This document shows, one piece after another, positions 11,218 through 56,805 of a stretch of DNA of 57,205 bases. The notes beneath the pieces were generated by a model. That model had not been told where the DNA came from and ran no database searches. It worked only from the letters and a program-made list of their open reading frames with translations. The position numbers and the translations under genes were made by a program. Source of the DNA: Prevotella sp. (GTDB lineage: Bacteria > Bacteroidota > Bacteroidia > Bacteroidales > Bacteroidaceae); the NCBI GenBank assembly GCA_017645905.1, contig JAGCNO010000134.1, positions 1-57,205 on the forward strand, given 5' to 3'. Numbering within the stretch: position 1 is the first letter of the stretch; each line of letters begins with the position of its first letter.

Positions 11218-13863
11218 TTAATACTTAAAGTCTACTGGCACCCATGTTTCAAAGCAGGTGCCGGAGGGGTGTCCCTCGCTGTCGGTGAGGTCGGTGACAT
11301 GCTGCTGTATGTGGTGTTTGTTCGTTCGGTTGTAGAGTTCTATCTGCTGGCTGATGATTTTCAGTCCCTGCTTGGTTGAGGGTCCTCCGGAAAGTGCTGC
11401 TTCGGAGCGGCCTACGCCGTCGTCGCTGACACTGACGAGCACGCCGTCTGAGCCGTCGCGCCGCGAGCTGCTGACGGTGACGGTCACATGGCCTGTGCCG
11501 GTCTTGTTGGCAATGCCGTGCTTTACGGAGTTCTGGCAGTAGGTGTGCAGGAGCATGGTGGGGAGCATCACTTTTTGGTCAACATCTGGGTCCACGTTGA
11601 TGGCGTATTGCAGCCGCGAGCCGTAGCGCAGCTGCTCCAGTTCGAGATAGGCGCGCACGTAGTCCACCTCATCGGCCACTGGTCGCGACGGGCGGTCGAT
11701 GTCCAGGAGGGTCTGGTTGGTAAAGTCGGAATAGAGTTTCAGGTAGTGTGTGGCCTCGTCGGTGGAGAGGTTCATCACGAAATACTCTATGCTGGCCAGC
11801 ACGTTGGAGTGGAAATGGGGTATGGCCTTCAGGCGGACAGCACTCAGCTGCAACTCTTTCTTCACCTTCTCGTCTTCCAGCCGTTCCATCTTCTTGTGGG
11901 CGTGCCGCTGTTCAAACCAGCGTGCCATCCACCACACGGCGAGAGCCAGCAGCAGCACGCTGGCAAGCCATACCCACCACTGCTGCCACCACGGGCGCGG
12001 TGCCACCACGACGGTCGGGTCCTGATTATCGTTCAACAGCAGGTCGGGGCGGCACGAAGTCATATCCTCCAAGCCCGCTATCCATACTGTACCGTCAGCG
12101 TCCTCGGCCATCATGGCCATCAGTGGCTCAATCATCGTGAAACCGCTCTGTGCGTCGAACCAGTGTATGTCAGATGCCTGGCAGCTATCATCTATGCGTG
12201 CCACCATCAGTCCGTCGATGGCCGCCACTACCAGAAAGCCACGTGGAGACACGTGGACTGCGCGTATCTCGTGGCCTTTGAGCGTAGGCAGTGCCTCGGT
12301 CATGGCGCGTATCTCTCCATTGTGGATGGCGAACAGCGAGTCGCCCAGGGCGAAGCAGATATGTCCCCGTCTGTCGGTGGCCATCGAGGTGACGACGAGT
12401 GTGGTGGGCGTGCTCTTCACCTGTTCTATGCTCACCCTGCCCTCGTCGATGCCCTGCAGCCGGTACAGTCCGGGGGTGCAGCCCACCCACAGGCTGCCCT
12501 GACCGTCGTCAGCGGCACACCACGGGCGTACGGTCTCGGTGGTCAGCGTGTCTGTATGCCCTGTGCTCGTATTGTACGACAGCACACTCCCCCTTGTGCC
12601 GATGACGAGGCGGTCTTGGTAGCGGCTCACGAACAGATATTTGTCGTAGGGCAGCCCAAGCCACTCCACGCTGTCGCCCGATATGGCAGCCACGTCGCCA
12701 CCAGCCGCCATATATACCTTGTCATTGATGACGGCGGCGCTTGGGGCGAAATAGTTGTTTTTGTCCTCGACCAGCAGCCGTCCGCCGGCTATTACCTTGC
12801 CATTGAGCGTGCCCATCACCATCCGTCCGGACTGGTGGTTTGGATGTTTGGTGGTTTGGTGGTTTGAGGGGTTGGGAGGGAGGAAGGCCATTGCCCTGAC
12901 GATGTCGTTCTCATCGGTCAGCCTGTGGTCGACGAAGTTGCAGTGGAAGAAGCAGTAGGCACCCTGATAGGTTGCTGCCCACAGGCGGTTCCACTTGTCG
13001 ATGAAAAGCCCTTTGATCATGTTGAAGCCCGTGGCTAATTGCCGCCACTGACCGGCATCGTATTGCCAGATGGTGTGCGAATCGCTGACGATGAGCTGCC
13101 CCTGATGGTTCTGCCTCACAAACAGGCCGTAGTCCGGGGCATCGAAGGGATGCTCACTCTGGCAGTAAAGACTGTCGTGACCCACACGATAGAGACCGTC
13201 GGCGGCCAGCGCGAAGAGGCCGTCGGCAGTACGGATAAAGGAGAACACGTCGGCCTTGTCGGTCAGCTTCACCGCCACATTTCCCTCTTGCAGGCGATAG
13301 ACCCCTTTCTCTGTGGGCACATAGAGCAGTGTCGAGTCGAGGTACATCTTGCGTTCGGGCGTCATCTCGTCCATCAGCGGCGAGGCCATGACTTGCTTCA
13401 TACCCGCCGCCGTCACCTGGCAAAGACGGCGGTTCTGCTCCTGCCTGTCCTCGAGCAGCACATAGCCAGCGGGCAGATCGGCAGCATTAAAATTATTCAG
13501 AAGGAAGTTCCCTTCCGGGTCAATGGGTGCTTTCGTCACATCATCACCGCTGATGCTCCACTGGCGCACGAAGCCCATGGCACGCACCTGCCCGCCGACT
13601 TCCTGGAAACCCACGATGTTCTCGCGCTGACCACGCAGGAAGGGGGTCAGCGTACGTCCGTCGTAGCGAACGAAGCCCGACAGCGTACCTATATAAATGT
13701 ACCCGCGGGAGTCCTGCCACACCGTCTCCGTCTGCATCTGCGACAGGCCGTCGAGCGTCGTGAAGCGGCGGTAGCTCAGGTTGTGCGTCAGCAGCCCGTC
13801 AGCTGAATAACAGTACGAGACGGCACAAAGCAGTGCCATAAATAAAAAAGTCCTCTTGCTCAT
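11218..13863 (-). CDS. LytS-type sensor histidine kinase with periplasmic propeller
   Basis: The start at 13863 gives MSKRTFLFMALLCAVSYC, a clean signal peptide, and lies just after a -7 element. The long periplasmic part has repeated short strands such as YRRFTTLDGLSQ and DSRGYIYIGTLSGFVRYDG, the 'two-component regulator propeller' pattern. A membrane helix (WVWLASVLLLALAVWW) follows, then the kinase: LKAIPHFHSNVLAS around residue 680 with the phospho-accepting His, and an ATPase with NSVKHG and VSDDGVG. An octamer tandem block inserts a PPNPSNHQTTKHPNHQ loop near residue 340. Confidence 0.92.
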   Translation of the reverse strand: MSKRTFLFMALLCAVSYCYSADGLLTHNLSYRRFTTLDGLSQMQTETVWQDSRGYIYIGTLSGFVRYDGRTLTPFLRGQRENIVGFQEVGGQVRAMGFVRQWSISGDDVTKAPIDPEGNFLLNNFNAADLPAGYVLLEDRQEQNRRLCQVTAAGMKQVMASPLMDEMTPERKMYLDSTLLYVPTEKGVYRLQEGNVAVKLTDKADVFSFIRTADGLFALAADGLYRVGHDSLYCQSEHPFDAPDYGLFVRQNHQGQLIVSDSHTIWQYDAGQWRQLATGFNMIKGLFIDKWNRLWAATYQGAYCFFHCNFVDHRLTDENDIVRAMAFLPPNPSNHQTTKHPNHQSGRMVMGTLNGKVIAGGRLLVEDKNNYFAPSAAVINDKVYMAAGGDVAAISGDSVEWLGLPYDKYLFVSRYQDRLVIGTRGSVLSYNTSTGHTDTLTTETVRPWCAADDGQGSLWVGCTPGLYRLQGIDEGRVSIEQVKSTPTTLVVTSMATDRRGHICFALGDSLFAIHNGEIRAMTEALPTLKGHEIRAVHVSPRGFLVVAAIDGLMVARIDDSCQASDIHWFDAQSGFTMIEPLMAMMAEDADGTVWIAGLEDMTSCRPDLLLNDNQDPTVVVAPRPWWQQWWVWLASVLLLALAVWWMARWFEQRHAHKKMERLEDEKVKKELQLSAVRLKAIPHFHSNVLASIEYFVMNLSTDEATHYLKLYSDFTNQTLLDIDRPSRPVADEVDYVRAYLELEQLRYGSRLQYAINVDPDVDQKVMLPTMLLHTYCQNSVKHGIANKTGTGHVTVTVSSSRRDGSDGVLVSVSDDGVGRSEAALSGGPSTKQGLKIISQQIELYNRTNKHHIQQHVTDLTDSEGHPSGTCFETWVPVDFKY
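12833..12872. repeat. Octamer tandem block inside the histidine kinase gene
   Basis: Five 8-bp units of TGGTGGTT type (TGGTGGTT, TGGATGTT, TGGTGGTT, TGGTGGTT, TGAGGGGT). On the coding strand they encode NPSNHQTTKHPNHQ in a propeller loop. Confidence 0.85.
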
Positions 13864-13869
13864 CGGCTG

Positions 13870-13877
13870 CAAAGTTA
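13870..13877 (-). promoter_or_regulatory. -7 element of the histidine kinase gene
   Basis: TAACTTTG on the minus strand, only six bases before the chosen start codon. Transcription from it would yield an almost leaderless mRNA. Confidence 0.7.
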
Positions 13878-13933
13878 CATATTTTCTTCCAAACCACAAT
13901 CACTTTTTCTGCTCTTCCCTTCACTTTTTCTTC

Positions 13934-14074: not shown

Positions 14075-15538
14075 ATGAAGAAACAAAAACTCAGAACAAG
14101 ACGCCATTTATTCCTGGCACGAACGGCAACGCTGCTCTTTGCAGCCTTATTAGCCCACCTGTCGACGTGGGGACAAAACAGTGTCTCTACCGTTACAACA
14201 TCAGAAAACATAACTAAGAAATCCACTGTATATGTTGGTGAAGTCGAAGTGGATGGCGTGACGATGATTAAATACCTTTTTTCTGATGATATAAGCCGAA
14301 AAGAGGAAGTCATAACCAACCTGCTCAGCGGTCTGCAAGGCATGAGCGACGGCAGCTACGCCACGATGCTCGAAGGGACAAAGGCTGATGTGGAGGCCAC
14401 TGGTCTGGCCCTCTGCTCTGACCCCGAACTCATCGCAGCAATGGACGAGAACTGGAGCAGCGCCCAGTATGTCGGAACGCTGTACTACACGGACAAAACG
14501 GTCTTATCAGAAATCAACTCAAATCTCTATGACATTGACGAAGGTTTCAAAGCAGCGCTTGATGCCCAAACCGCAGCAAGGGCAGAAAACATCGAAAAAC
14601 TTGCTGATGTGAAAAAATGCATTGTCACCCATCTCGATTCAAGAACTGTGACCGACGTGTGGTACAACATTATTGACGGCTCGACCGTCAGACACTCCGA
14701 CATAAACGTCATTTATGATTCGGAAGCAACCACGGTAATCTGCACCAGGGTTGAGCTTGAGACGTTGCAAGAAACGACAAAGGAGTTTGTTGACTTAGGC
14801 CTGCCCAGCGGCACGCTATGGGCGACGTGCAACGTGGGAGCCAGCAACCCGCATGACACTGGCCTCTTCTTTGCCTGGGGCGACACAGAAGGACACGGTA
14901 GCGACCCCTCCGACGGCTATTTCTTCAGCTGGGAGAACTACAAGTGGGCAGAGGTTGACGGAGAGGAAACATCCTTCACCAAATACTGTTCAGACAGCAG
15001 CCAGGGCAAGGATGGCTTCACCGACGGCAAGGCCGAGCTTGACCCGGAGGATGATGCTGCCTACGTCAATTGGGGCAGCCAGTGGCGTATGCCGAGCAAG
15101 CAGCAGCTGGACGAGCTAAAGGAACAATGTACGTGGACTCAGACCACCCTGCAGGAGGTCAATGGCTACGAGGTGACAGGCCCCAACGGCAACACCATCT
15201 TCTTGCCCACCACGGGCTGGCGTATCGACGACATGCTGCTCGATGGCGGAGCCTACTGGTCACGCACAACCAATCCAGAGAGTGACGGCGGTGCCTACTA
15301 CCTCGGCTGGGACGACTGGGGATGGTACGAATATGGCGGACGCCTCGACGGCCAGTGCGTTCGTCCTGTTTTCAATGACGAGACAGTGACGCTCATCAGC
15401 GACAAAGAGGGCAGCTACCGGTCAACGCTCCACAGCGACAACGTCATCTACGACTTGACAGGCCGCCGGCTTAACACAACACCCCGCCAGGGCATCTATG
15501 TGAAGAATGGCAAGAAGGTCGTAGCTTCTAACTCTTAA
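14075..15538 (+). CDS. Secreted surface protein with Fibrobacter-paralogous-type domain
   Basis: 487 residues from the ATG at 14075, chosen because it starts a basic region plus hydrophobic signal (TATLLFAALLAHLSTWGQ). Residues ~30-245 are of unknown family. Residues ~245-440 begin VDLGLPSGTLWATCNVGAS and contain FFAWGDTEG, WGSQWRMPSKQQLDEL and a WSRTTN ending with CVRPVF, the pattern of the Fibrobacter succinogenes major paralogous domain seen in many Bacteroidales surface proteins. The tail VIYDLTGRRLN...GIYVKNGKKV is a short C-terminal sorting-like motif. The last codons (ASNS-stop) are made of TAACTCN heptamers. Likely a target of the adjacent LytTR system. Confidence 0.75.
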   Translation: MKKQKLRTRRHLFLARTATLLFAALLAHLSTWGQNSVSTVTTSENITKKSTVYVGEVEVDGVTMIKYLFSDDISRKEEVITNLLSGLQGMSDGSYATMLEGTKADVEATGLALCSDPELIAAMDENWSSAQYVGTLYYTDKTVLSEINSNLYDIDEGFKAALDAQTAARAENIEKLADVKKCIVTHLDSRTVTDVWYNIIDGSTVRHSDINVIYDSEATTVICTRVELETLQETTKEFVDLGLPSGTLWATCNVGASNPHDTGLFFAWGDTEGHGSDPSDGYFFSWENYKWAEVDGEETSFTKYCSDSSQGKDGFTDGKAELDPEDDAAYVNWGSQWRMPSKQQLDELKEQCTWTQTTLQEVNGYEVTGPNGNTIFLPTTGWRIDDMLLDGGAYWSRTTNPESDGGAYYLGWDDWGWYEYGGRLDGQCVRPVFNDETVTLISDKEGSYRSTLHSDNVIYDLTGRRLNTTPRQGIYVKNGKKVVASNS

Positions 15539-15588
15539 CTCCTAACTCTTAACTCCTAACTCCTAACTCTTAACTCCTAACTCTTATA
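15534..15588. repeat. TAACTCN heptamer tandem block
   Basis: About seven heptamers of the form TAACTCC/TAACTCT run from the stop codon of the upstream gene to just before the next start. They fill the whole intergenic space between the two surface-protein genes. Confidence 0.9.
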
Positions 15589-20460: not shown

Positions 20461-20576
20461 GAACGGCTTTCTCTGATAGAAAGAACGGCTTTTTCTGGTA
20501 GAAAGAACGGCTTTTTCTGGTAGAAAGAACGGCTTTTTCTGGTAGAAAGAACGGCTTTTTCTGATAGAGAGAACGG
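20461..20576 (+). repeat. 22-bp-period repeat array 1
   Basis: Five complete 22-bp units plus one partial, with GAACGGCTT starting at 20461, 20483, 20505, 20527 and 20549 and a degenerate GAACGGTT at 20571. The core is GAAAGAACGGCTTTTTC with a 5-bp spacer (mostly TGGTA). It lies between the convergent rhodanese and MBL genes. The rest of 20366..20622 shows nothing coding. Confidence 0.95.
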
Positions 20577-20622: not shown

Positions 20623-21471
20623 TTATTTGCATATTAAGTTCGACCCACATGAGAAGGGTTGAATCTTATTACCCATTATTCCTTTTAGGATTGCAAAGAC
20701 TTTGTCACCCGTACAATGACTGGTGTAAAACTGCGTCAGGGGGTAATCCTCTTTGAGCCTTTGAGCCAAAGCTGCAAGTTCTTCCTCCGTTTCATGGTCA
20801 TCAAGCAGATGGAAGCCACCGACAACAGCTTTAACTGGCCAAGGACTGGCGGCAAGGATATTCTCTAAGCCGCTATGGGCGCAGCCAGTAAAAAGCAGGC
20901 CATCGGTATAAAGTGCCAATTCGTGACTGAAGTCATCATTTACATATTTGCCTTCATCATCTTGCACAAACAGATGCCGGTTTCCTTGTGGAATCTGATG
21001 TATCTGAGGTATGTGCGCTATGATGTGTATGCCATCACAGACCTCACAGGTTTGGTCAATAAGTAGGAATCTGTCTTGAAAATCCTCCGGCCATTGTGTT
21101 GAGATATTATGCAGGTATTGAGTTGAGAGTTTAGAGTTTAGAGTTGAGAGATCCGTCCTTTGCAGGTATCGCCGCTTAGAGTAGAATTTTCCACTGACAG
21201 CATCAGGCGAGACGATGACTTTAGCTTTGTCATTGATGCACATAAAGTGTCTTAATCCTCCTGCATGGTCGTTGTGTCCGTGAGAAATGAACACATAGTC
21301 CACCATGCTTAGGTTAATGCCTGTCTTTTCTGCATTACGGATAAAGACATCGCTGGCTCCTGTGTCAAGCAGGATTCTGCGTCTCTCCGTCTCCAACAGA
21401 ATGGACAGGCCATGCTCCGTCTGGAGCTGGCTGTCACAGCTCCGATTGTCTGATATCACTGTCCACTTCAT
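20623..21471 (-). CDS. MBL-fold metallo-hydrolase
   Basis: Start at 21471 (MKWTVISDNRSCDS) lies five bases after a -7 element. About 282 residues with the metal site FISHGHNDHAGGL, GLLFTGCAHSGLENIL and VVGGFHLLD with later metal-binding His, the pattern of the dihydropteroate-like/RFA-P-synthase-related MBL subgroup. It is cytoplasmic by lack of a signal. A heptamer block inserts LSTLNSKLSTQ near residue 110, after KFYSKRRYLQR. Confidence 0.85.
   Translation of the reverse strand: MKWTVISDNRSCDSQLQTEHGLSILLETERRRILLDTGASDVFIRNAEKTGINLSMVDYVFISHGHNDHAGGLRHFMCINDKAKVIVSPDAVSGKFYSKRRYLQRTDLSTLNSKLSTQYLHNISTQWPEDFQDRFLLIDQTCEVCDGIHIIAHIPQIHQIPQGNRHLFVQDDEGKYVNDDFSHELALYTDGLLFTGCAHSGLENILAASPWPVKAVVGGFHLLDDHETEEELAALAQRLKEDYPLTQFYTSHCTGDKVFAILKGIMGNKIQPFSCGSNLICK
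21120..21147. repeat. Four-unit heptamer block inside the MBL gene
   Basis: GAGTTGA, GAGTTTA, GAGTTTA, GAGTTGA: four 7-bp units read on the plus strand; on the coding strand they give the LSTLNSKLST peptide. Confidence 0.9.
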
Positions 21472-21476
21472 ATTCG

Positions 21477-22293: not shown

Positions 22294-23526
22294 TCAGATC
22301 CGTCCTTTGAAGGTATATCCGATGCCTTCGACGGCAGCGCGGATGGCCTCTTCTGCGGCGGGGCCTTTAACGGTGAGGGTGTTGGCAGAGGCGCTGGCCT
22401 TGGCGGACGTTACGCCGGGGACTTCCTCAACGGCACGGACTACGGCGGCCTCGCAATGGCTGCAATGCATGTCCTCGACCCTGTAAACAATGACATCGGG
22501 GTCTAACGTCTTTTTGGTGGTAAAATTGCTGAATAGTTTCATCATAAGAGCATATAATATTAATAATGTTAATACTGTGGCGCAAACGAGTTTAAACGGG
22601 CTGGGCAGAGTGGATGCACTCATGCAGCAGTCATCATTAGGAGTGAGGAGTAAGGAGTGAGGAGTGAGGAGTCCAGTGGCATTGAGCAGTAGGCCAAACA
22701 GTATGGAGAAGCCCACGATGGTCATCAGATAAAGCGAAGTGAAACGTTGGCCCATAGACTTATGGACTACCAAGATGGAGGCCAGGTTGACGGCTGGACC
22801 CGCCATGAGCATGACCAGCGCGGCTCCAGGCGAGAGCCCCTTCATCATCAGTGCTGCCGCTACGGGTATGCTGCCCGTTGAACAGATGTACATCGGTATG
22901 GCAATGAGCAGGATGACGAGCATCTGGAGCAACGGCTGGCTGCCGAAGGTAAGGAAGAATTCGTCGGGCACGACGACCTGAATCAGCGCCGCCACGACGA
23001 GGCCAATGACCAGCCGCAGGCCGATGTCGCGAATCATGTCGTAATAAGCATATTTCAGCACCCGCCAGATTCTGTTGCCCGTCTCCAACTGGCATGAGGA
23101 GGTGGTCTCGGCCACCTTGTCGTCCTCTCGGACTAGACGGTTTACCAGCAGTCCGCCGCAGACGCCTGTGATGAGTGCTGCCACAGGGCGGATGATGGCA
23201 AAGCCCAGTCCCATGAGGGAATAAGTTGCCAAGATGGAGTCGATGCCCGTCTGCGGCGTGGCGATGAGGAACGATGCGATGGCACCCTTCGAGGCCTTCT
23301 CGTTCCTGAGACCGATGGCCGTAGGGATGACTCCGCATGAGCAGAGCGGCAAGGGTACACCCAGCAGGGCCGCCCATAGTACGGACAGTCTGTTGTTTCG
23401 AGAAAGATAATTGGCGTAGAACCTTTGCGGAACAAAAACATGCAGCACCCCCGCGATGAAGAATCCCAACAGCAGATAGGGAGCCATCTCGCAGACGACG
23501 TTCAGAAGCGATGTAAAGAAGGTCAT
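22294..23526 (-). CDS. SO_0444-type metal efflux permease with C-terminal HMA domain
   Basis: 410 residues. The membrane part has about eight helices with PLPLCSCGVIPTAIGL (C62, C64), ASFLIATPQTGIDS and MLMAGPAVNLASI, typical of the YraQ/SO_0444 permeases proposed to export Cu or Zn. The last ~65 residues are a heavy-metal-associated domain with MHCSHC. A heptamer block puts TGLLTPHSLLLTPN before a CCMS segment. It ends four bases after the cysE start region on the same strand, so it follows cysE in transcription. Confidence 0.87.
   Translation of the reverse strand: MTFFTSLLNVVCEMAPYLLLGFFIAGVLHVFVPQRFYANYLSRNNRLSVLWAALLGVPLPLCSCGVIPTAIGLRNEKASKGAIASFLIATPQTGIDSILATYSLMGLGFAIIRPVAALITGVCGGLLVNRLVREDDKVAETTSSCQLETGNRIWRVLKYAYYDMIRDIGLRLVIGLVVAALIQVVVPDEFFLTFGSQPLLQMLVILLIAIPMYICSTGSIPVAAALMMKGLSPGAALVMLMAGPAVNLASILVVHKSMGQRFTSLYLMTIVGFSILFGLLLNATGLLTPHSLLLTPNDDCCMSASTLPSPFKLVCATVLTLLILYALMMKLFSNFTTKKTLDPDVIVYRVEDMHCSHCEAAVVRAVEEVPGVTSAKASASANTLTVKGPAAEEAIRAAVEGIGYTFKGRI
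22640..22667. repeat. Four-unit heptamer block inside the permease gene
   Basis: GGAGTGA, GGAGTAA, GGAGTGA, GGAGTGA; encodes LTPHSLLLTP on the coding strand between the last membrane helices. Confidence 0.9.
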
Positions 23527-28619: not shown

Positions 28620-28639
28620 TAAGAGCAGGGCGTAGTCTC

Positions 28640-30117: not shown

Positions 30118-31170
30118 CTATTGAAACTTTAGGATGGTGCTGCCGAGTGAGAGGCCTGTACCGAAGCCGGCAACCATAACGGTGCTGCCGGGGCCAATGA
30201 GCTGACGGTCGAGGCAGTCGCGCAGGGCGATGAGGACGCTGGAGGAGACGGTGTTGCCCGTTGTCGAGAGGTCGATGTAGAACTTGTCCTTGGGCAGTTG
30301 GCAGACCATGCGCAGGGTGTCGAGCATGAACTTGTTGGCCTGATGGAAGACGTAGTAGTCTACCTGATCCTTCGTCATGCCGTTTGCCTGCAGCACGCGC
30401 TCCATCATGGCGGGCACGGCATCGAGGGTGAAGTTGAAGATGGCGCTGCCGTTCATGTAGAGGTTGTCGTCGCGCCACTCGTGACCTTCCTCGTCCTCGG
30501 TGACAATACCTGTGGGGGAGGGCTGGCGGGAGCCGCCGGTCTTTACGATGAGGTTGTTTGCCCCAGCACCGTCGGTGCCGAGGGCGAAGTTGCCAATCTC
30601 AATTGAAAGGGGAGTAAGAAGGGAGTGAGAAGGGAGTGAAGGGGGAGTGAAAGGGACGATACTCTTTGCGGAGATGAGGCAGGCGGCGGCACCATCGCCG
30701 AAGATGGCACGGTTGCTCTTGTCCGAGGGATGGATGTACTTGTTGTAGGTCTCGGCGGTAAGCAGGAGCACGTTGTGGGCTATGCCGGCGGCGATGAGGC
30801 CCTTGGCTAATGCCAGGCCATAGATACAACCAGAGCAGGCCAGGTCGTAATCCAGGGCTCCGGCGGTGGTGGGTATGCCGAGGCGGTGCTGTAGGAGACA
30901 GGCCGTGGAGGGCAGGTGGTAGTCAGGGCTCTGGGTGCAGAGCAGGACGAAGTCGATGTCCTGCGGGCTGATGCCGTACTCGTCGAAGAGTCGGCGGGCA
31001 GCCTTCTCGGCCATGTCGCCGGCGGTCTCGTCAGGGGCTGCGAGGTGGCGGGAGTTGACGCCTACCTTCTTGGCCACCTTCTCCACGCTCCACTCGGGAA
31101 ACTCGCTGACCAGCTCCTCGTTGGTCATCACCCGCTCAGGCAGGTAGTAGGATATGGCGGTAATGTACAT
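30118..31170 (-). CDS. 3-oxoacyl-ACP synthase III-like protein
   Basis: 350 residues of the KAS III type: active Cys112 in DLACSGCIYGLALAKG, the later YVFHQANKFML with catalytic His, and STTGNTVSSSVL with catalytic Asn. It would condense an acyl-CoA with a malonyl carrier. Its neighbour upstream is a carrier protein and downstream an MBOAT, so it is unlikely to be the housekeeping fabH. An 11-bp tandem repeat encodes a PPSLPSHSLLTPL loop near residue 180. Confidence 0.87.
   Translation of the reverse strand: MYITAISYYLPERVMTNEELVSEFPEWSVEKVAKKVGVNSRHLAAPDETAGDMAEKAARRLFDEYGISPQDIDFVLLCTQSPDYHLPSTACLLQHRLGIPTTAGALDYDLACSGCIYGLALAKGLIAAGIAHNVLLLTAETYNKYIHPSDKSNRAIFGDGAAACLISAKSIVPFTPPSLPSHSLLTPLSIEIGNFALGTDGAGANNLIVKTGGSRQPSPTGIVTEDEEGHEWRDDNLYMNGSAIFNFTLDAVPAMMERVLQANGMTKDQVDYYVFHQANKFMLDTLRMVCQLPKDKFYIDLSTTGNTVSSSVLIALRDCLDRQLIGPGSTVMVAGFGTGLSLGSTILKFQ
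30611..30654. repeat. Four 11-bp units inside the KAS III gene
   Basis: GGAGTAAGAAG, GGAGTGAGAAG, GGAGTGAAGGG, GGAGTGAAAGG; an 11-bp period rather than 7 or 8, in frame. Confidence 0.85.
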
Positions 31171-36566: not shown

Positions 36567-37562
36567 TTAAAAACTCTTCAGCTCTTTCTTTGGGAACAGG
36601 CCGAGGTATGCAAGGATGAATTTCACTTTGTCCCGTAGGGTTATATCCTTACAGAAGAGTACCCGGTTGTTGATTTCTCTATAGGCCTCAAAAAACAATT
36701 TACGGCGCTGGCGGTCGTAGGGCATCGACCAAAGGCCCTTTTTGGCATACCACTTTAGAGTGAAGAGTGAAGAGTTATAAGTGAGGAGTGAGGAGTTATG
36801 GGTGAGGAGTTCTACGACGATGTCGGTGTTTGCCTTGAACTGCTGATAAATCGACATGAGCTTGTCGATACTGTCTACATGGCAGATGGAGTCGGGGTTG
36901 TAGAAATAGTTATAGAGCGTCTGGGGCAGATAGGCCATCTTGCCTCCGTTCAGCAGGCATTGCAGGACGATGACCAGGTCTTCGCCCATAGGTGCTTTCG
37001 GATAGGTGAAAGGGTCTTTGTAGCAGGCTGTCCGCCGGAACAGTTTGTTCCATACGGTCCATGCGAACTTCTGCCGCAGGAGGTCGTTGATGAAGGCCTC
37101 TTTGAGTCCCCGCTGACCTCCCCCCGAAGGGGGAGGCTGGCAGCCTTTCATGGAGCGGATAATGTGCTCTCCGTCGGAGACACGATAGTCGCTGACCACG
37201 ATGTCGGCCTGTTCTGCCTCGGCCGTCTCGTACATCAGCCGAAACATGTCTGGCTCCACCCAGTCGTCGCTGTCACAATGGATGACATACTCGCCGGTGG
37301 CATATTGTAACCCGTGTCTGCGGACGGCGGCAGGGCCGCTGTTCTGAGGCATCTTCTCGATTCTCACCGTCCAGGAACAGGCTGTGAAGCGGTCGTGGTG
37401 TTTCTCGATGGCCGACTGTAGCAGCTCGATGGAGCGGTCGGGGGTGCAGTCGTCCACAAAGATGAACTCTATGTGGTCTAAGGTCTGATTGAACAGACTA
37501 TTAGCACACCGTTCGATGTATTTCTCTACACCGTAGACAGGGACAATGACAGACAGTTTCAT
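36567..37562 (-). CDS. Glycosyltransferase family 2
   Basis: 331 residues of GT-A fold: VIVPVYGVEKYIERCANSL at the start, FIFVDDCTPDRS, EYVIHCDSDDWVEPDMF with the DxD metal site, and PMGEDLVI. It would add a sugar on the cytoplasmic face. Two insertions of repeat DNA are visible: a GC-rich palindrome coding QPPPSGGGQRGLK (37117..37136) and a seven-unit heptamer block coding LLTHNSSLLTYNSSLFT. Confidence 0.9.
   Translation of the reverse strand: MKLSVIVPVYGVEKYIERCANSLFNQTLDHIEFIFVDDCTPDRSIELLQSAIEKHHDRFTACSWTVRIEKMPQNSGPAAVRRHGLQYATGEYVIHCDSDDWVEPDMFRLMYETAEAEQADIVVSDYRVSDGEHIIRSMKGCQPPPSGGGQRGLKEAFINDLLRQKFAWTVWNKLFRRTACYKDPFTYPKAPMGEDLVIVLQCLLNGGKMAYLPQTLYNYFYNPDSICHVDSIDKLMSIYQQFKANTDIVVELLTHNSSLLTYNSSLFTLKWYAKKGLWSMPYDRQRRKLFFEAYREINNRVLFCKDITLRDKVKFILAYLGLFPKKELKSF
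36759..36807. repeat. Seven-unit heptamer block inside the GT2 gene
   Basis: AGTGAAG, AGTGAAG, AGTTATA, AGTGAGG, AGTGAGG, AGTTATG, GGTGAGG: 49 bp, which is 7 x 7. Confidence 0.9.
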
Positions 37563-37577: not shown

Positions 37578-39143
37578 TTAGTGGTTTGGGTGTTTGACCC
37601 TTAAAGTTCTTGCATACTGTTTCACCATGTTTCTCTCTGCCGATGTCATAAAGGCAAAATAAAGCAGGATAGCGGTGGCGGCCACGCTGGCCATGCTGAC
37701 CAAGACAATGCGCAGGAGGGAATCGTCCATGACCTGGGTAATCAGATAAGGCACGACGGGCACCAGCAGCGTCATCGAGAGGCAGGGAAACAGAATTTGC
37801 CGGGCATAGTCCTTGTAGCGGTATTCAAACACCCTGTGCATGGCCACCAGGGCAACCGCCTGATTGACAACGGAGAAGATAATCGTTATGAGAAAGACAA
37901 TCCAGGCAGGGTAGCCCATTTTTAAGAACAGCCAGCAGGCAGGCAAAAGGAAGATATTGATGGTGGAAGTAAGTATCTGGTAACCTCTGATTCTGCCCGT
38001 AGCAAATACAATCTGCGTCACCGGCGTGTTGAGGGTGCAGATCATGGCGTCAATCAAGACAAGGGCGGTAAAAACGTTGCTGTTTTCGGGAACGGCTTTT
38101 CCTAACCACAGATGGAGCACGAGGTCTATCTCAAGCACGACGGGGGTGATAATCATCAGCAGCAGGCAATAGCAAATCTTCGACTGGGCCTTGAAAAGGC
38201 TGTAGGCCCTTTGGCTGTTGCCCATGGCGTAGGACGACACCATTTGGGGATTAAAAGCCTTGACGACGTTTGAGGAAAACCCCGTGATGGCAGCATAGAC
38301 CTGAAAGGCAACCCCTCGGGCAGCATTGACAATCGTTCCGAAGAAGATGTTCAGCAGCAGGTTCAGGCCCTGGTCCTTGAGCATGAAGATAACGGTGCCA
38401 AGGAGGTTCCAGCCCGAGAAGTTCAGCAGCTCCCTGAACAGCCGGCGGTCGGTCTTGCCCGTGAAGAGTGAAGAGTGAAGAGTGAAGAATTGTCTCAGGA
38501 AACTGAATTGCCGCCTGGCATAGCCGACATGTAGCAGGAAGTCTATCAGGGTGACGGCAAACAGCAGGGCACCATATACCAGCAGCTTGTCAAAGCTGAT
38601 AAAGGGCAGCATCAGCACCACCGCTAACCGCAGCACCACTTCAAGGATGTTGACGACGGCATAGAACCCCATCCGCTCCTTTGCAATAATCATGGCGCTG
38701 AAGGGAATCTTCAGGATAACCAGCGCCATAGAGGCCACGGAGAACTGGAACAGATAGTGGGCCACCTCCAACCGGCCTTCCGGCAGTACCATCACATGGT
38801 TGATGTACCATATTCCAAAGGTCTCAAGAATGAGGAAGATGAGGCCGACAAGTATCAAGTGAACCCTTATCCCGATGGAGAACACCCTTACAAACCCCTC
38901 GTCACCGTCACGGCCGCCTTCGTAGTTGTAGAAGCGCTGTGTGCTCGATGTCAGGGTGGCATTGAGGAAGGAGAACAGCGAGACGAACCCTGCAACGACG
39001 TTAAACACGCCGTAGTCCGACACGCCAAGAACATTTAGTACTACCCGTGAGGTGTAAAGACTCACGAGTAGTACAAAAAACATTCTGATGTATAAGAACA
39101 GTGTGTTTCTAAAGATTCGGTTGTTATTGGGCAAATCTTTCAC
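37578..39143 (-). CDS. Polysaccharide flippase (Wzx/MATE-like)
   Basis: 521 residues with about twelve to fourteen membrane helices and no signal peptide; VVLNVLGVSDYGVFNVVAGFVSLF and STQRFYNYEGG near the start are typical of Bacteroidetes Wzx proteins. It moves undecaprenyl-linked oligosaccharide across the inner membrane. A four-unit heptamer block codes FFTLHSSLFTG in a loop, and the C-terminus RVKHPNH-stop is made of octamers that continue past the gene (37565..37596). Confidence 0.88.
   Translation of the reverse strand: MKDLPNNNRIFRNTLFLYIRMFFVLLVSLYTSRVVLNVLGVSDYGVFNVVAGFVSLFSFLNATLTSSTQRFYNYEGGRDGDEGFVRVFSIGIRVHLILVGLIFLILETFGIWYINHVMVLPEGRLEVAHYLFQFSVASMALVILKIPFSAMIIAKERMGFYAVVNILEVVLRLAVVLMLPFISFDKLLVYGALLFAVTLIDFLLHVGYARRQFSFLRQFFTLHSSLFTGKTDRRLFRELLNFSGWNLLGTVIFMLKDQGLNLLLNIFFGTIVNAARGVAFQVYAAITGFSSNVVKAFNPQMVSSYAMGNSQRAYSLFKAQSKICYCLLLMIITPVVLEIDLVLHLWLGKAVPENSNVFTALVLIDAMICTLNTPVTQIVFATGRIRGYQILTSTINIFLLPACWLFLKMGYPAWIVFLITIIFSVVNQAVALVAMHRVFEYRYKDYARQILFPCLSMTLLVPVVPYLITQVMDDSLLRIVLVSMASVAATAILLYFAFMTSAERNMVKQYARTLRVKHPNH
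38461..38488. repeat. Four identical heptamers inside the flippase gene
   Basis: GTGAAGA repeated four times without mismatch, in frame. Confidence 0.92.
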
Positions 39144-40929: not shown

Positions 40930-41472
40930 ATGGATAAGGAACGTCTGAAGCAGAGCTGGCTCTACCGCCATTTCGGCCGTGTCATCATGTGGCCGAAATA
41001 CTTCCTCATACGTATGAGGCTGCGGCGCAAGTACTTCTGGATGACCTATCAGAAGAACTGGATGATAGACCCTGCTACCGAGCGGCGGCAGAAGTTCTGG
41101 GAGAAGTGTGGCGTGAAGGCCACGGGACGCTTCCATGTAGGTGCCGACGTGTATTTCGACGCGGAGAATGCGGAGCACCTTACTATCGAGGACGACGTGT
41201 GGATCAGCGCCCGGACGACCATCCTGCTGCACAAGCGCGACATCTCGGGCTACCGGCAGGGCGATGTCTACACCGAGCAGCCGTCGAAGGTGATGCCTGT
41301 GCGCATCTGCCGAGGAGCGGCTATCGGCATGGACTGCACCATCATGCCCGGTGTGACCATCGGCGAGGGTGCCGTCATCGGCACAGGGTCGTTGGTAACG
41401 AAAGACATTCCGGCCTGGACGGTGGCCGTGGGTAGGCCGGCAGAGGTGGTGAGCGCGCTGCGCGCTAAATAA
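40930..41472 (+). CDS. Hexapeptide-repeat (LbH) acyltransferase
   Basis: 180 residues. After a basic N-terminal segment (LYRHFGRVIMWPKYFLIRMRLRR) come hexapeptide turns: GRFHVGADVYFDAENAEHLTI, IEDDVWISARTTILLHKRD, CRGAAIGMDCTIMPGVTIG and GAVIGTGSLVTKDIPAWTVAVG. The left-handed beta-helix binds acetyl-CoA or another acyl donor; the H in LLHKRD is a candidate catalytic base. It probably O-acetylates a sugar. Confidence 0.88.
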   Translation: MDKERLKQSWLYRHFGRVIMWPKYFLIRMRLRRKYFWMTYQKNWMIDPATERRQKFWEKCGVKATGRFHVGADVYFDAENAEHLTIEDDVWISARTTILLHKRDISGYRQGDVYTEQPSKVMPVRICRGAAIGMDCTIMPGVTIGEGAVIGTGSLVTKDIPAWTVAVGRPAEVVSALRAK

Positions 41473-41474
41473 AA

Positions 41475-41513
41475 ATGAGAAATGAAAAATAAGAAATGAA
41501 AAATGAGAAAGAC
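41475..41513. repeat. AAATGAG heptamer block
   Basis: AAATGAG/AAATGAA/AAATAAG-type 7-bp units fill the gap between the acyltransferase and the membrane-protein gene. An in-frame ATG at 41496 lies within them and is probably not the true start. Confidence 0.75.
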
Positions 41514-46043: not shown

Positions 46044-47315
<1,272 letters not shown>

Positions 47316-47325
47316 GCTTTATAAT

Positions 47326-48675
47326 ATGAAACCATCAATAGTTAAAGGCACCCGCGACTTCGGCCCCATGGAGATGGCCAAGCGCAACTATATCTTCAAC
47401 ACCATACGGCAGGTGTACGAGCTGTATGGCTTCCAGCAGATTGAGACCCCGGCTCAGGAGACCCTGCAGACCCTCATGGGCAAGTACGGCGAGGAGGGCG
47501 ACAAGCTGCTCTTCAAGATTCTGAACAGTGGTGACTACCTTTCGAAGGTCACCGACGAGCAGCTCACCTGTCGCAACACCTTGCGGCTGGCAGCATGCAT
47601 CTGCGAAAAGGGTCTCCGCTACGATCTCACCGTTCCCTTTGCCCGTTATGTGGTGATGCATCGTGAGGAGCTGCAATTGCCTTTCAAGCGCTATCAGGTA
47701 CAGCCCGTGTGGCGTGCCGACCGTCCGCAGAAGGGCCGCTATCGTGAGTTCTACCAGTTCGATGGTGATGTTGTAGGCAGCGACTCATTGCTCAACGAGG
47801 TGGAGCTGATGCAGATTGTCGACACCGTGTTCACCCGTCTCGGCGTGCGCGTACAGATAAAGATAAACAACCGTAAGATTCTCACCGGCATTGCCGAGGT
47901 CATCGGTGCCGCCGACAAGATTGTGGACATTACTGTGGCCATCGACAAGCTCGACAAGATAGGTATCGACGCCGTGAACGACGAGCTGCGCAACGACGGC
48001 CTTACAGACGAGCAGATTGCCAAGCTGCAGCCCATCATTCTCCTCGAGGGCACCAACGAGCAGAAGCTCGACACTATCGCCGAAGTGCTAAAAGACAGCG
48101 AGACCGGACTGAAGGGCATTGAGGAGACACGATACATCGTCTCTCAACTCTTAACACTCAACTCTCAACTGGAATTCGACCTCACCCTTGCCCGAGGCCT
48201 GAGCTACTACACTGGCGCCATCTTCGAGGTGAAGGCCCTTGATACTCCTATGGGCAGCATCTCAGGCGGCGGACGTTACGACAATCTTACCGGCATCTTC
48301 GGAATGCCCGGCCTCTCGGGCGTAGGTATTTCTTTCGGTGTGGACCGCATCTACGACGTGCTCGACGCCCTCGACCTCTATCCCAAAGACTCGCTGCAGA
48401 CCACTCAGGTGCTCTTCATCAACTTCGGCAACGCTGAGACCGCATACGCTCTGCCCGCCGTGGCCCGTCTCCGTCAGGCCGGCATACGTACTGAATATTA
48501 TCCCGATGCTGCCAAGATGAAGAAGCAGATGAGCTATGCTAACGCCAAGCAGATTCCTTATGTTGTCCTCGCCGGCGAGAGCGAGATGGCCGAGGGAAAG
48601 TTCACGCTGAAGAACATGGCAACTGGCGAGCAGCAGATGCTCACGGTGGAGGAAATCATCGGAAAAATTAGCTAA
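47326..48675 (+). CDS. hisS: Histidyl-tRNA synthetase
   Basis: 449 residues from the ATG at 47326 ([20 protein letters not shown]), ten bases after purA. Class II motif 2 ([25 protein letters not shown]), [15 protein letters not shown] and motif 3 ([21 protein letters not shown]), then an anticodon-binding domain. A heptamer block gives [14 protein letters not shown] just before the conserved histidine-specific [10 protein letters not shown] motif, an unusual place for inserted repeat DNA in an essential enzyme. Confidence 0.96.
48142..48169. repeat. Four-unit heptamer block inside hisS
   Basis: TCTCAAC, TCTTAAC, ACTCAAC, TCTCAAC; in frame, coding [10 protein letters not shown]. Confidence 0.92.
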
Positions 48676-48793: not shown

Positions 48794-48876
48794 GAAAGAA
48801 CGGCTTTTTCGATTTGAAAGAACGGCTTTTCCCCATCGAAAGAACGGCTTTTTCCCGTCGAAAGAACGGCTTATTC
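48794..48876 (+). repeat. 22-bp-period repeat array 4
   Basis: GAACGGC starts at 48798, 48820, 48842 and 48864 with 5-bp spacers GATTT, CCATC and CCGTC. It lies 118 bp after the hisS stop and 260 bp before the next gene. The remainder of the 463-bp gap 48676..49138 holds the hisS terminator and the promoter at 49112; no gene is seen. Confidence 0.95.
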
Positions 48877-49111
48877 GAATCGAAAGCGCTCGGCGACGAA
48901 GGAGACGCTTGCGTAATGAAATGGAGCAAGAACGGCTCATTGTTTCTGATGGCCGGTTTGTGTTTGTGCCATTCGTCTGCGGGTATGGGTCTTTCAAACT
49001 GTTTGGCCTGTTTCTTGGTGGTTACACGACGGAGCAAAATGTTTATTTGAAAAAAGTCTTAAATGCTGACAAGTTTTTGAAAATATATTCAGCAGTTTGG
49101 TGGAAATTTCG

Positions 49112-49138: not shown

Positions 49139-49969
49139 ATGATAAAGGTCAAAGGTCAAAGGTCAAAGGTAAAGGATAGTATCAGGGGACTGGTGATGGT
49201 GATAACGATGGTTATCACTTTTCAGTTAATACCTCTTGCTACCCAGGCACAGGTGGAAGTGCCCGACACGTTGGTGGATGTGCCGACGTTGATTCCCGAC
49301 GACATCCCCGACCTGGTGCCCGACGTCATTCCCGAGTTAGAGGCCGAGCTGGAAAACATCAGGCAGCAGGCGGACTCGGCTGTTGCAATAGACGTGCTGG
49401 AGCAGGGGGCGACGCTAATGGCTGAGCAGGTGGTGCCTGTTCGTCAGAAGCGCGACTGGAGCACGTGGGCTCCCGACCCGAAGCGTGCCCTTTGGCTGGC
49501 GCTTGTCATTCCGGGCGGCGGGCAGATATACAACCGCAAGTACTGGAAGCTGCCCATTGTCTACGGAGGGTTCCTCGGGTGTGTCTATGCGATGTCGTGG
49601 AACAACAGGATGTACATGGACTATTCGCAGGCTTACCTTGACCTGACTGACGACGACCCGAACACGGCGAGCTACATGAAGTTCAAGCACATAGGAAGCC
49701 AGATAACGGATGCAAATGCAGAACGCTGGAAGGACGTGTTCAAAAAGCGTAAGGACAAGTTCCGCCGGTGGCGAGACCTCAGCTTCTTCGTCATGCTGGG
49801 CATCTATGCCGTCTCGGTCATCGATGCCTACGTCGACGCCGAGCTGTCGCAGTTCGACATTTCAAAGGACCTGAGCCTGAGAGTAACGCCGGCGGTTATC
49901 AGCAACGGACAGTCGAAGAACCCGTTCTATGCCTCGGCATTGGGAGTAAATTGCAGTATAAACTTTTAG
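49139..49969 (+). CDS. DUF5683-type membrane protein
   Basis: 276 residues. The N-terminus MIKVKGQRSKVKDS is encoded by a heptamer block; then a signal-like helix (LVMVITMVITFQLIPLATQAQ), a valine/aspartate/proline-rich linker (PDTLVDVPTLIPDDIPDLVP), and the DUF5683 core with SDPKRALWLALVIPGGGQIYN-type WAPDPKRALW and YNRKYWKLPIVYGGFLG helices, ending in a beta segment. Probably an inner-membrane or envelope protein of unknown role. The stop abuts the next start with no gap. Confidence 0.8.
   Translation: MIKVKGQRSKVKDSIRGLVMVITMVITFQLIPLATQAQVEVPDTLVDVPTLIPDDIPDLVPDVIPELEAELENIRQQADSAVAIDVLEQGATLMAEQVVPVRQKRDWSTWAPDPKRALWLALVIPGGGQIYNRKYWKLPIVYGGFLGCVYAMSWNNRMYMDYSQAYLDLTDDDPNTASYMKFKHIGSQITDANAERWKDVFKKRKDKFRRWRDLSFFVMLGIYAVSVIDAYVDAELSQFDISKDLSLRVTPAVISNGQSKNPFYASALGVNCSINF
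49144..49171. repeat. Four-unit AAAGGTC block at a gene start
   Basis: AAAGGTC three times, then AAAGGTA; codes the second to eleventh residues of the DUF5683 protein. Confidence 0.9.
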
Positions 49970-54253: not shown

Positions 54254-54883
54254 TTATTGGGTTTGCTGAAGAAAGGCTTGGACCAGCTGGAGGGTTTCGG
54301 CCTCGGCAGTAGCCAGGTCATCGTTTACCACGATATGGTCAAACTGTGGGGCGAAGGTCATCTCGTACTCGGCTTTGGCCAGACGGCTCTCGATGGCCTC
54401 TGGAGTGTCTGTTCCACGCCCTTCGAGACGGCGGCGCAGCTCTTCGACTGACGGTGGCTGGATGAAGATGCTCATAGCCTGCTCGCCGTAGAACTTCTTG
54501 ATATTGATGCCGCCCTTTACGTCAACGTCGAACACCACGTTCTGTCCGGCCTTTAGTTGTCGCTTCACCTGTGCCTTCAGTGTACCGTAGAAGCGGTCTT
54601 CATAGACCTCTTCATACTCCAGAAATTCATCGTTGTCTATGCGCTTGCGAAATTCCTCGGGTGTGAGGAAGAAGTACTCCACGCCGTTCTGCTCCGTACC
54701 ACGTGGCGGACGCGATGTAGCCGATATGGAGAAATAGAGCCGCAGCTCCGGGTGCTCCTTCATCAGCCATTGCACAATCGTTGTCTTGCCGCTACCGCTT
54801 GGCGCGGAGAAAATAAGAAGGCCTCCTGGTCGTTTGGTCGTTTTGGGAGTTGGTCGTTTGGTTGTTTGTTTGTCTTTTTCCAT
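54254..54883 (-). CDS. gmk: Guanylate kinase
   Basis: 209 residues. LLIFSAPSGSGKTTIVQWL is the P-loop, followed by SATSRPPRGTEQNGVEYFFL for GMP binding and FYGTLKAQV, VFDVDVKGG. The first 19 residues (MEKDKQTTKRPTPKTTKRP) are encoded by octamer units and are not part of the fold; the core begins at GGLLIFSAPSG. Phosphorylates GMP. It sits between yicC and nadD. Confidence 0.95.
   Translation of the reverse strand: MEKDKQTTKRPTPKTTKRPGGLLIFSAPSGSGKTTIVQWLMKEHPELRLYFSISATSRPPRGTEQNGVEYFFLTPEEFRKRIDNDEFLEYEEVYEDRFYGTLKAQVKRQLKAGQNVVFDVDVKGGINIKKFYGEQAMSIFIQPPSVEELRRRLEGRGTDTPEAIESRLAKAEYEMTFAPQFDHIVVNDDLATAEAETLQLVQAFLQQTQ
54827..54874. repeat. Six-unit octamer block at the gmk start
   Basis: TGGTCGTT, TGGTCGTT, TTGGGAGT, TGGTCGTT, TGGTTGTT, TGTTTGTC; in frame, coding the TTKRPTPKTTKRP tail. 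Confidence 0.9.
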
Positions 54884-55771: not shown

Positions 55772-55778
55772 ATTGTGT

Positions 55779-55851
55779 TGAGAGTTGAGTGTTTAGAGTT
55801 TAGAGTTGAGTGTTTAGAGTTGAGAGTTTAGTGATTAGAGTTTAGTGATTA
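55779..55851. repeat. GAGTTTA/GAGTTGA heptamer block between yicC and the lipid kinase
   Basis: About ten GAGTTTA/GAGTTGA/GTGTTTA-type units fill the whole intergenic space. Confidence 0.85.
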
Positions 55852-56778
55852 TTCAGGAATGAGGAAGTTGATGACTTCCGGCTCTATCCTTATGTGGTAT
55901 TCTCCTGTCGGGTGGTCAGCCAGCCGTCCGTCTATGCCCACGCGTGCCTTAGCGCTCTCGCAGGTCATCTCTCGGGTGCGGTAGGGGTGTACGGAGCGGT
56001 GGTTGAGGAACCGTCCGGTAAAGAGCAGCCACAGTCCTTCCAGGAACTGTCTTCCGGGCGGGTTGTATACCACCGAGACGTCGAGCAGTCCGCTGTAGGG
56101 CACCGCGCTGGGTGTCTGTCCGTAGCCGTGAGCATTGCCTATGCAGACGGTCATCACCGAGCGGTCGATCTCCTCATAGTTCACCTGCAGCCGCATCTTG
56201 TAGTCATGGCGGTGGAAGAGCATGAGCACCAGCGACGAGAGGAATGCCAGGTGACTGCTGCCCAGCACCTTGCGAGCTTGTCGGCGCAGGTGCATGATGT
56301 CGGCGGTAAGGCCGATGTTCACGCAGTTGAGGAAATATCGGCTGACGTGTCCGTTGTCGCGGCTGTCGTAGCTGATGCAGCCCAGGTCAATCTTCCGCAC
56401 TCGGTGACGGATGAGCCAGTCTACGGTCTGCGCGTCGTTCTTCTCGTCGAAGCCCCAGTAGCGGGCGAAGTCGTTCATCACGCCGTTGGGTATGAGTCCC
56501 AGGTGTACCTGCTCACGGACGCTCTTCTCCTCGCGCATGAGGCAGTTTACGGCATCGTTGAGTGCCGAGTCGCCACCCACGATGACGATGGTCGTATAGC
56601 CGTTGTGCAGCAGCATGGTCATCAGCCGCTCCACGCTGTCGGTCGACTCGCTCTGCACGAAGTCATAGCACACGCCCTTCTCGTCGAGCGTGCGTTTCAG
56701 CCGTTCCCAGCGGCGGCTGCTCTCATGTATGCCTTTCTTGGGGCAGTAGAGCAGGCCCCAACGGTCTTCGCAGTTCAT
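55849..56778 (-). CDS. Diacylglycerol/lipid kinase family protein
   Basis: 309 residues of the DagK/YegS type: VIVGGDSALNDAVNCLM in place of the usual GGDGTxxEVxNG motif, LGLIPNGVMNDFARYWG for nucleotide binding, and FLNCVNIGLTADIMH. The catalytic loop reads GGDS rather than GGDG, a variant worth noting. It phosphorylates a lipid, and may be an orphan in phospholipid turnover. The start codon lies at the edge of a TGAACTA heptamer block. Confidence 0.82.
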   Translation of the reverse strand: MNCEDRWGLLYCPKKGIHESSRRWERLKRTLDEKGVCYDFVQSESTDSVERLMTMLLHNGYTTIVIVGGDSALNDAVNCLMREEKSVREQVHLGLIPNGVMNDFARYWGFDEKNDAQTVDWLIRHRVRKIDLGCISYDSRDNGHVSRYFLNCVNIGLTADIMHLRRQARKVLGSSHLAFLSSLVLMLFHRHDYKMRLQVNYEEIDRSVMTVCIGNAHGYGQTPSAVPYSGLLDVSVVYNPPGRQFLEGLWLLFTGRFLNHRSVHPYRTREMTCESAKARVGIDGRLADHPTGEYHIRIEPEVINFLIPE

Positions 56779-56805
56779 AGTTCACAGTTCATAGTTCATA
56801 ATTCA
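56771..56805. repeat. AGTTCAT heptamer block forming the miaA stop and the kinase start
   Basis: AGTTCAT, AGTTCAC, AGTTCAT, AGTTCAT, AATTCAA. On the minus strand the repeat supplies the codons NYEL-stop of miaA and the ATGAAC start of the kinase. Confidence 0.88.

Follow-up and report, generated by a model that had tools for sequence, protein, structure and literature searches.

The window, the whole 57,205-bp stretch of Prevotella-like DNA analysed here (G000:C2:1-57205), comes from a metagenome-assembled genome (MAG) of 3.40 Mb in 181 contigs that is 87.5% complete, and it is scattered with tandem blocks of 7- and 8-bp units. One family of these blocks is the repeat-bearing part of a composite element, A(AGTGAAG)4-AATTTGCTNCCGC, in which four 7-bp repeats are followed by a 13-bp tail, or core, for a length of 42 bp. 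The blocks are best explained by two layered processes, a reading to which we give a probability of roughly 0.55: insertion of short elements, similar to repetitive extragenic palindromic (REP) sequences or miniature inverted-repeat transposable elements (MITEs), as units, followed by slippage of the arrays and filtering at the level of the gene.

When array ends are aligned, AGTGAAG arrays often end in one phase, enter AATTTGCTNCCGC, and then give way to unrelated DNA; AAT comes directly after the final exact unit in 24 of 48 AGTGAAG/AATGAAG arrays. Both ends of the element are fixed in phase, and the flanks are unrelated. Core copies were parsed from the genome of the window (the own genome), from related genomes, and from IMG/VR loci, most of them fetched through a joint pattern of unit and core, TGAAGAATTTGCTNCCGC. 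This gave 134 core copies distinct by their 12 + 12 flanking bases. At least one unit is present in 125 of them, and exactly four in 77 of the 125 (16/27 own, 22/34 relatives, and 39/64 IMG/VR, by group labels under which at least one own copy, L130 = L347, is filed with a relative). A leading A, present in 97 of the 125, brings the four-unit element to 42 bp. The variable core base N is A in 77 copies, G in 30, T in 16, and C in 2, and it differs at one orthologous site (T in L299, A in L395). Among loci not fetched via the core (3.92 Mb), TTTGCTNCYGC is enriched 22-fold within 30 bp of arrays, with 9 distinct occurrences near and 30 far. An inverted partner lies within 60 bp on the core side in 17 of 133 copies, and only these paired forms resemble terminal inverted repeats. 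The pairs, seen in L130, L472, G065, and G176, enclose 15-60 bp of mostly unrelated sequence. Thus, like REP sequences, the element occurs in multiple dispersed copies, both singly and as inverted pairs. At one own coding copy (L455), the stretch is 42 bp longer than its element-free counterpart in the relative G096, and the adjoining ~40 bp cannot be aligned.

The joint pattern occurs at 36 sites in the own genome; the 13-mer core alone has 45 sites, 36 of which are the joint ones. Across the genus, 71 of 200 genomes (own included) carry the joint, with up to 50 sites (G034), and its reversed control gives 0 hits; the joint is absent from 295 genomes of other Bacteroidota genera, leaving the own genome as the sole match among 296. 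Within the sample, then, the element is restricted to the genus. A plasmid search with the 42-mer returned 9 records, all partial matches and none covering 80%. Three of ten proteins from the IMG/VR contigs (on two contigs) matched PHROGs (radical SAM, endolysin, and DNA polymerase exonuclease); IMG/VR membership is itself a label, and entry of the element into phages is likely. A scan of the window for known RNA families found one tRNA, and scans of four element-bearing loci found nothing over the element.

The window holds one copy of the composite, whose single mismatch to AATTTGCTNCCGC places it outside the 125 counted copies, together with related arrangements:

36391..36432, + strand: 42-bp composite copy, A(AGTGAAG)4 then core AATTTGCTGCTGC; antisense, near the N-terminal end of a DUF4886/dockerin open reading frame (ORF), 35220-36536
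38461..38492, + strand: four AGTGAAG units, the first without its A, in the same phase and ending ..AGTGAAG-AATTG
36757..36810, + strand: mixed AGTGAAG/AGTTATA/AGTGAGG heptamers with a 21-bp super-period, in the GT2 ORF 36567-37562
41452..41510, + strand: candidate second composite, GC hairpin AGCGCG-CTG-CGCGCT then AAATRAR heptamers
10241..10429, + strand: 57-bp repeat x2.7 containing a GGGGATTGCAAATCCCC palindrome and two AATTTGCTACCGC cores without heptamers, then (GAGTTGA)x3

The array at 38461..38492 is a variant without the canonical core that reads in frame as FFTLHSSLFTG within ORF 37578-39143. This ORF has no Pfam match, and by our reading of its sequence its product is probably flippase-like.

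Copies within genes bear the marks of the reading frame. Of 37 open-frame copies, 33 have 1, 4, or 7 units, versus 56 of 88 others (Fisher p = 0.003), and each of the four exceptions has two units; four units are found in 27/37 inside open frames and in 50/88 outside. Most open-frame copies (28/37) are antisense. For period-7/8 arrays in general, a survey of seven sampled genomes placed 62 of 159 within ORFs, 25 at edges, and 72 between, the ORFs being mechanical, greedy longest-ORF calls rather than gene predictions. Because ORFs cover 90% of the sequence yet hold only 62 of the 159, coding places are depleted in arrays. The C-rich strand is the sense strand in 51 of the 62 ORF arrays versus 19 of 40 arrays between co-directional genes, where orientation is balanced (21 vs 19); this bias fits selection against stops rather than targeted insertion. 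It is consistent with the idea that selection would keep mainly frame-preserving copies (4, 1, or 7 units, that is 42, 21, or 63 bp) whose sense strand, usually the C-rich one, is free of stops, and that it would do so at tolerant loops and termini.

An earlier, sequence-only reading of the window had listed 12 block positions and argued that some process generates them. The described repeats are present at all 12, and Tandem Repeats Finder gives 4.0-4.9 units at 8 of these; the exceptions are 12833 (5.8), 36759 (5.7), 54827 (5.2-5.9), and 37565 (2.9 units). Further blocks, absent from that list, lie at 10408, 11186, 15528 (8 units), 24633, 31851, 35203, 39220, 41467, 43342, 55777 (7-10 units), and 56772. 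Our array detector, which is blind to blocks below ~3 units, finds 15 arrays in the window (10 of period 7, 4 of period 8, and 1 of period 11) and none in 10 Markov-2 and 10 Markov-5 simulations, which bears the argument out and rejects a chance origin. An assembly artefact is unlikely, given similar arrays in many independent genomes, including G069 (where the listed hits fall on a single contig). The claim of a constant unit number holds in part: four is preferred, and sharply so in the AGTGAAG-plus-core family; the peak at four is evident for period-7/8 blocks in ORFs (24/62), and between genes the distribution is broad (four units in 16/72). The related peptides noticed earlier (TLHSSLFT and others) are indeed similar, their source being the C-rich strand of common units read in frame. 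The further claim, that a generating process rather than a selfish sequence is responsible, does not apply to the AGTGAAG family, which is dispersed, selfish-like, and has fixed ends; for most other units either a process or a dispersed sequence may be responsible. In short, the blocks are not one kind of thing.

Across 359,860 bp of the own genome, arrays scoring at least 14 have periods of 7 (56 arrays), 8 (11), 14 (8), and 11 (3), and more rarely 9 (2), 6 (1), and 12 (1). In 11 own-genome stretches picked regardless of repeats (135,277 bp), the counts are 21 for period 7, 2 for period 8, and 2 for period 14. Periods 7 and 8 together reach 17 per 100 kb in these stretches and about 17-21 per 100 kb in the MAG. 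With multiples of three set aside, spectra of exact runs are clearly raised at periods 7 and 14 and weakly at 8; runs of 7-8 matches number 63 at period 7 versus a mean of 17.5 at control periods, and the excess at 7 and 14 is continuous, starting at two copies. Period-7 arrays are thus longer than chance, as is expected of heptameric long simple sequence repeats (LSSRs). The relatives G096, G632, and G564 also use periods of 9 and 10 bp.

Such blocks are frequent and far above chance, and their density is very unequal among related genomes. The degenerate pattern RRTKANR x3 occurs 507 times in the own genome, where its reversed control occurs 95 times. Over 200 same-genus genomes the count of the pattern spans 0 to 915, with at least one in 185, and by our reading the pattern is mostly scarce in 295 other Bacteroidota (outliers G344, G359, and G373); it is a rough gauge because the reversed control is also high in many genomes. 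In 20-80 kb sampled from each of eight low-repeat genus genomes, seven had no period-7/8 array, and G146, sampled as "empty", had two in 60 kb. Within a genome the same units turn up again at unrelated places, and to a lesser degree this is also true across the genus: identical unit pairs make up 5.2% in the own genome, 6.8% in G632, 17% in G096, 16% in G216, 24% in G515, and 0/10 in G083, compared with 0.3-12.5% for own versus other genus genomes and 0/1088 for own versus G515, all percentages without a simulated null.

At several sites, relatives carry different arrays or none. By histidyl-tRNA synthetase (HisRS), the own genome is closest, within the named collection, to uncultured rumen and gut members of Prevotellaceae and Prevotella, which makes Prevotella the probable genus, and G632 (93% in uxaC, 398 genus genomes compared) is among the nearest relatives. 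In a protein-level comparison of 31 aligned HisRS orthologs, most have no repeat-like peptide at the site. At the DNA level the same loop carries TCTCAAC in the window and different heptamers in G632 (TCAATGG) and L032 (CTCTCAC), a repeat-like insert is present in L045, and no array is found in the other seven DNA stretches compared. Similarly, the 11-mer at window 30604 is matched in G632 by TTTACGA heptamers, and AAATGAG at 41467 by GAGTTGA/GAATTGA heptamers. Vertical inheritance of one unchanged array is therefore rejected at these three sites, where the units of relatives differ. It is supported at 31851: there the array of G632 is built of the same unit and is 21 bp (three units) longer with the frame kept, and G096 lacks the array. 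At 22639, G698 has no array and an interval 12 bp shorter; at 49144 and 54827, G632 has none. Arrays in related IMG/VR contigs are often identical, several pairs being nearly the same contig. Where they differ, whole-unit changes of 7 and 8 bp occur with flanks 93-99% alike, and of 14 and 21 bp with flanks 79-92% alike. Arrays are also replaced en bloc (L254/L300, L293/L299); L254 and L300 (L300 3140-3186), with flanks 96-99% identical, have GAGTTTA heptamers versus 8-mer and 15-mer repeats.

These observations would fit a scheme in which some blocks belong, as the part that bears the repeats, to short dispersed elements that are non-autonomous and resemble REP sequences or MITEs in size and behaviour. 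A(AGTGAAG)4-AATTTGCTNCCGC would insert as a 42-bp unit at unrelated places, sometimes as an inverted pair around a short spacer, and a second, less secure type would consist of a small GC hairpin followed by TAAATGAG heptamers. Once in place, heptamer and octamer arrays would gain and lose whole units, their units would mutate and homogenise, and whole arrays could be replaced. We infer a transposition-like mode of insertion that is served in trans, and a similar origin for the other unit families; a Y1/HUH single-strand transposase would be the first candidate for the enzyme, with a weak link.

Several findings weigh against this scheme. Orthologous copies in related contigs can count twice among the 134, because distinctness rests on 12 + 12 flanking bases. 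There are few clean empty sites, and target duplication is not consistent among them (L467 vs L140 suggests TAAA; L455 vs G096 shows none). The long forms L384, L389, L423, and own L134 carry ~40-75 bp extra at the core end, and the short form stands in a relative at the sites of L384, L389, and L423, so the 42-bp form may have arisen by deletion from a longer one. The own-genome sample of 75 arrays includes only 5 with a core at 30 bp or less (three of them GAGTT-type), 9 of AGTGAAG type without a core, and 61 of other units, most of which show no conserved end or non-repeat part on inspection of the array ends. The composite is thus demonstrated for a minority only, and for the majority slippage and a common vocabulary of units are all that is demonstrable. 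In addition, no recurrent gene family lies within ~1.8 kb of the 125 copies, save genes common to related IMG/VR contigs; no parent with matching ends, of the kind expected for a MITE, was found in this survey, which a rare autonomous one could escape. PF01797 (Y1_Tnp) matches, found in 111 of 200 genus genomes, are only mildly associated with the core (49/71 core-positive vs 62/129 core-negative; p = 0.003 by hand tally without phylogenetic correction), and the element-rich G125, G163, G080, and G130 are not among the matching genomes. None of 20 Y1 neighbourhoods has a period-7/8 array at 600 bp or less from the match, although four of the 20 (L367, L372, L375, L378) probably do not represent genuine Y1 genes. 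Nor does the own genome match the tested subclass-2.6-like protein.

That protein, similar to TnpA-Y1 subclass 2.6 of PMC6006769 by our reading of the motifs NHLH, WQ, and YIHQNP, has matches under 1e-10 in 12 genomes (again our reading), 7 of them core-positive. The genes viewed are accompanied by a different palindrome, of the GCGGATTTGCAATCCGC kind, and related palindromes occur in the window; our impression is that the core resembles half of this palindrome (ATTTGC..CCGC). The 20 neighbourhoods contain one short core-like match, within an ORF (L382), and no cognate REP-associated tyrosine transposase (RAYT) flanked by the repeats. Overall, a RAYT is a possible mobiliser that finds no support in PF01797 presence, the neighbourhoods, or the subclass-2.6-like protein. 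Separately, palindromes related to GGGGATTGCAAATCCCC adjoin Y1 transposase genes in L363, L365, L377, and L382, and GGGGATTGCAAATCCCC-type palindromes lie in the window at 10241-10392 and about 36440-36460.

Pure local replication slippage, in which a seven-base preference of the polymerase would build blocks from local seeds with no element at all, would account for the unbroken excess at periods 7 and 14 that begins at two copies, the whole-unit indels between related contigs, the in-frame three-unit difference at 31851, the higher-order 14- and 21-bp periods, and the 61 coreless arrays of other units. LSSRs of this kind were described by Mrazek in 2007, as reported in PMC4679880 and PMC4692102; they consist of the tandem unit only with no conserved non-repeat part, whereas the AGTGAAG family has the core. 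Slippage cannot make the 13-base core of this family, for which slippage alone is rejected; the AAT after the last exact unit in half of the 48 arrays and units that recur at unrelated sites also speak against it; as a general account we judge it rather unlikely. Less probable again is the proposal, made for TAACTGA repeats in Beggiatoaceae, that the blocks are functional cis elements, namely translation or termination signals under selection. Some arrays do abut start codons (..AGAGATATG) and some inverted pairs would make terminator-like hairpins, but the balanced strands between co-directional genes, the antisense majority in open frames, and the free variation of unit and presence at orthologous sites are hard to reconcile with it.

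The polarity of the element, with an abrupt, invariant core side and an array variable in length and units, would also suit templated addition, in which GCGGNAGCAAATT and then ~four CTTCACT units are copied onto a 3' end before the break is joined, by a reverse transcriptase resembling telomerase or by a polymerase of end repair. The four-unit mode outside open frames, inverted pairs that look like two fragment ends each extended, and the want of a consistent target duplication point the same way; long forms with extra core-end sequence are not predicted, and inverted pairs are a minority. We consider this route very improbable. Its most specific version, which we hold to be a long shot, is that free DNA 3' ends in Prevotella receive GCGGNAGCAAATT and ~four CTTCACT from an enzyme that carries its own template and are then joined, a bacterial analogue of telomere addition in break repair. 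If true, it would explain the fixed start, the counted repeats, the single-base variable position, the inverted pairs, and the inconsistent target duplication.

Known systems share some of these properties, as judged from the portions of the cited papers available to us. The GGGNATC heptamers of Xanthomonas and Nostoc (PMC4692102) are likewise seven-base units, genome-wide, with four preferred, variable among close relatives, and rarer on the coding strand. However, GGGNATC is a G-quadruplex unit in which four is tied to four G-tracts, with no conserved flanking core noted in those portions, whereas AGTGAAG has no G-tracts and a 13-bp core at one end. The TAACTGA repeats of Beggiatoaceae, cyanobacteria, and a few Bacteroidetes (PMC4679880) are also sporadic heptamers with lineage-specific positions and 7-nt indels. 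Unlike ours, they have one unit, lie in the main genome mostly directly upstream of start codons, and have no core composite noted in the portions available; forward placement before start codons does not describe our element, with 37 of 125 copies within open frames. The BrickBuilt MITE of Porphyromonas gingivalis (PMC4596501), also in Bacteroidales, is a tandem repeat within a dispersed non-autonomous element with a leader and a tail, but it has 23-nt units, 19 copies that are always intergenic, and terminal inverted repeats like those of insertion sequences, whereas ours is 42 bp, also lies inside open frames, and has no terminal inverted repeat that we could see.

REP sequences and bacterial interspersed mosaic elements (BIMEs), mobilised with a RAYT (TnpA-REP) (PMC3733652, PMC6006769), are similar in size, copy number, single and inverted-pair arrangement, and presence of some copies in genes, and the Y1 matches in 111 of 200 genus genomes add to the likeness. 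REP sequences are palindromes of 20-40 bp that can form a hairpin, whereas the 42-bp form has almost no fold: modelled as DNA, it reaches -0.1 kcal/mol and its complement -0.9 kcal/mol, the complement (z -3.0) with only a two-pair stem. The long-form stretches (L423, L134, L384) reach -9.6 to -19.8 kcal/mol, only a little greater in stability than shuffles (z -1.1 to -1.8). There is also no constant GTAG/GGAG (or CGTC) tag, GTAG being present on the complement only if N = A (77/125 copies), and the element is absent beside the Y1 matches examined.

Four-unit heptamer arrays are therefore known. The AGTGAAG-plus-core composite was not found in literature searches, nor was any work on heptanucleotide, heptamer, or short tandem repeats in Prevotella or Bacteroidetes, in searches that most subscription journals lie outside. 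The bacterial preference for seven-base repeats, often four, is described as unexplained in PMC4692102 and PMC4679880. One heptamer family now has defined ends, a count, a cross-species distribution (0 to 50 sites), and frame-preserving copies in genes. A statistical curiosity becomes an element that can be followed as it moves, and comparison of sister species rich in it with those that lack it can map what it requires genetically. The composite offers a handle on the spread of bacterial heptamer repeats through genes, gaps, and virus-like DNA, and it is a route for short peptides into loops of ordinary proteins.

The candidate second composite is the weaker and less secure. A GC-rich hairpin with a variable stem lies directly 5' of 10 of 22 AAATGA-type arrays, a class picked after viewing array ends, against 15/476 other arrays and 94/4000 random places. 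The copy of the hairpin in the window extends over the final codons of ORF 40930-41472. As for the core of the first composite, it is not confined to a single unit, since GAGTTGA and TAGGAGT-type arrays also flank a TTTGCTNCCGC core (L135 6526-6652; L134 13833-13857). In the distant Bacteroidota genome G515 (L194, L195, L196), GATGACR/GATGTTG arrays form inverted pairs around a GTGCGAGACC hairpin, a parallel third composite. In G156 (L192, L193), AATTATG/AATTTTG arrays have GTAATCAT ahead of them at four places, possibly another fixed-end element.

The genes of the window are ordinary, and its other arrays are distributed among them as follows:

48141..48170, + strand: TCTCAAC heptamers in the HisRS ORF 47293-48675, in a loop of variable length
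31851..31872, - strand: TTGACCA-type heptamers in the glycosyltransferase ORF 31450-32745
30604..30656, - strand: 11-bp GGGAGTGAGAA repeats in the KAS III-like ORF 30118-31170
22639..22672, - strand: GGAGTGA heptamers in the ArsP-like permease ORF 22294-23526
21120..21150, - strand: GAGTTKA heptamers in the metallo-beta-lactamase-fold ORF 20623-21510, peptide LSTLNSKLST
12833..12879, - strand: 8-bp GTGGTTTG repeats in the histidine-kinase ORF 11218-13899
55775..55847, + strand: long GTTGAGA/GTTTAGA array with a 21-bp super-period, between two ORFs
15528..15583, + strand: CTAACTC heptamers, 8 units with a 21-bp super-period, at a gene end
49144..49175, + strand: AAAGGTC heptamers at the start of the DUF5683 ORF 49139-49969
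54827..54873, + strand: 8-bp TGGTCGTT repeats at the start of the guanylate kinase ORF 54254-54883

Longer repeats are also present. Tandem repeats of 22 bp around AAAGAACGGCTTTTTC lie at 20461-20576, 28537-28621, 40775-40870, and 48794-48886, mostly in gene gaps; AGCCGTTCTTTC occurs 77 times in a 360-kb sample of the own genome, and G632 has stretches like the 22-bp repeats of the window. Finally, a 17-bp unit x6.5 (CTTTACCTCCCCAGTTA) lies between ORFs at 45356-45465, where G632 has a shorter, different repeat.

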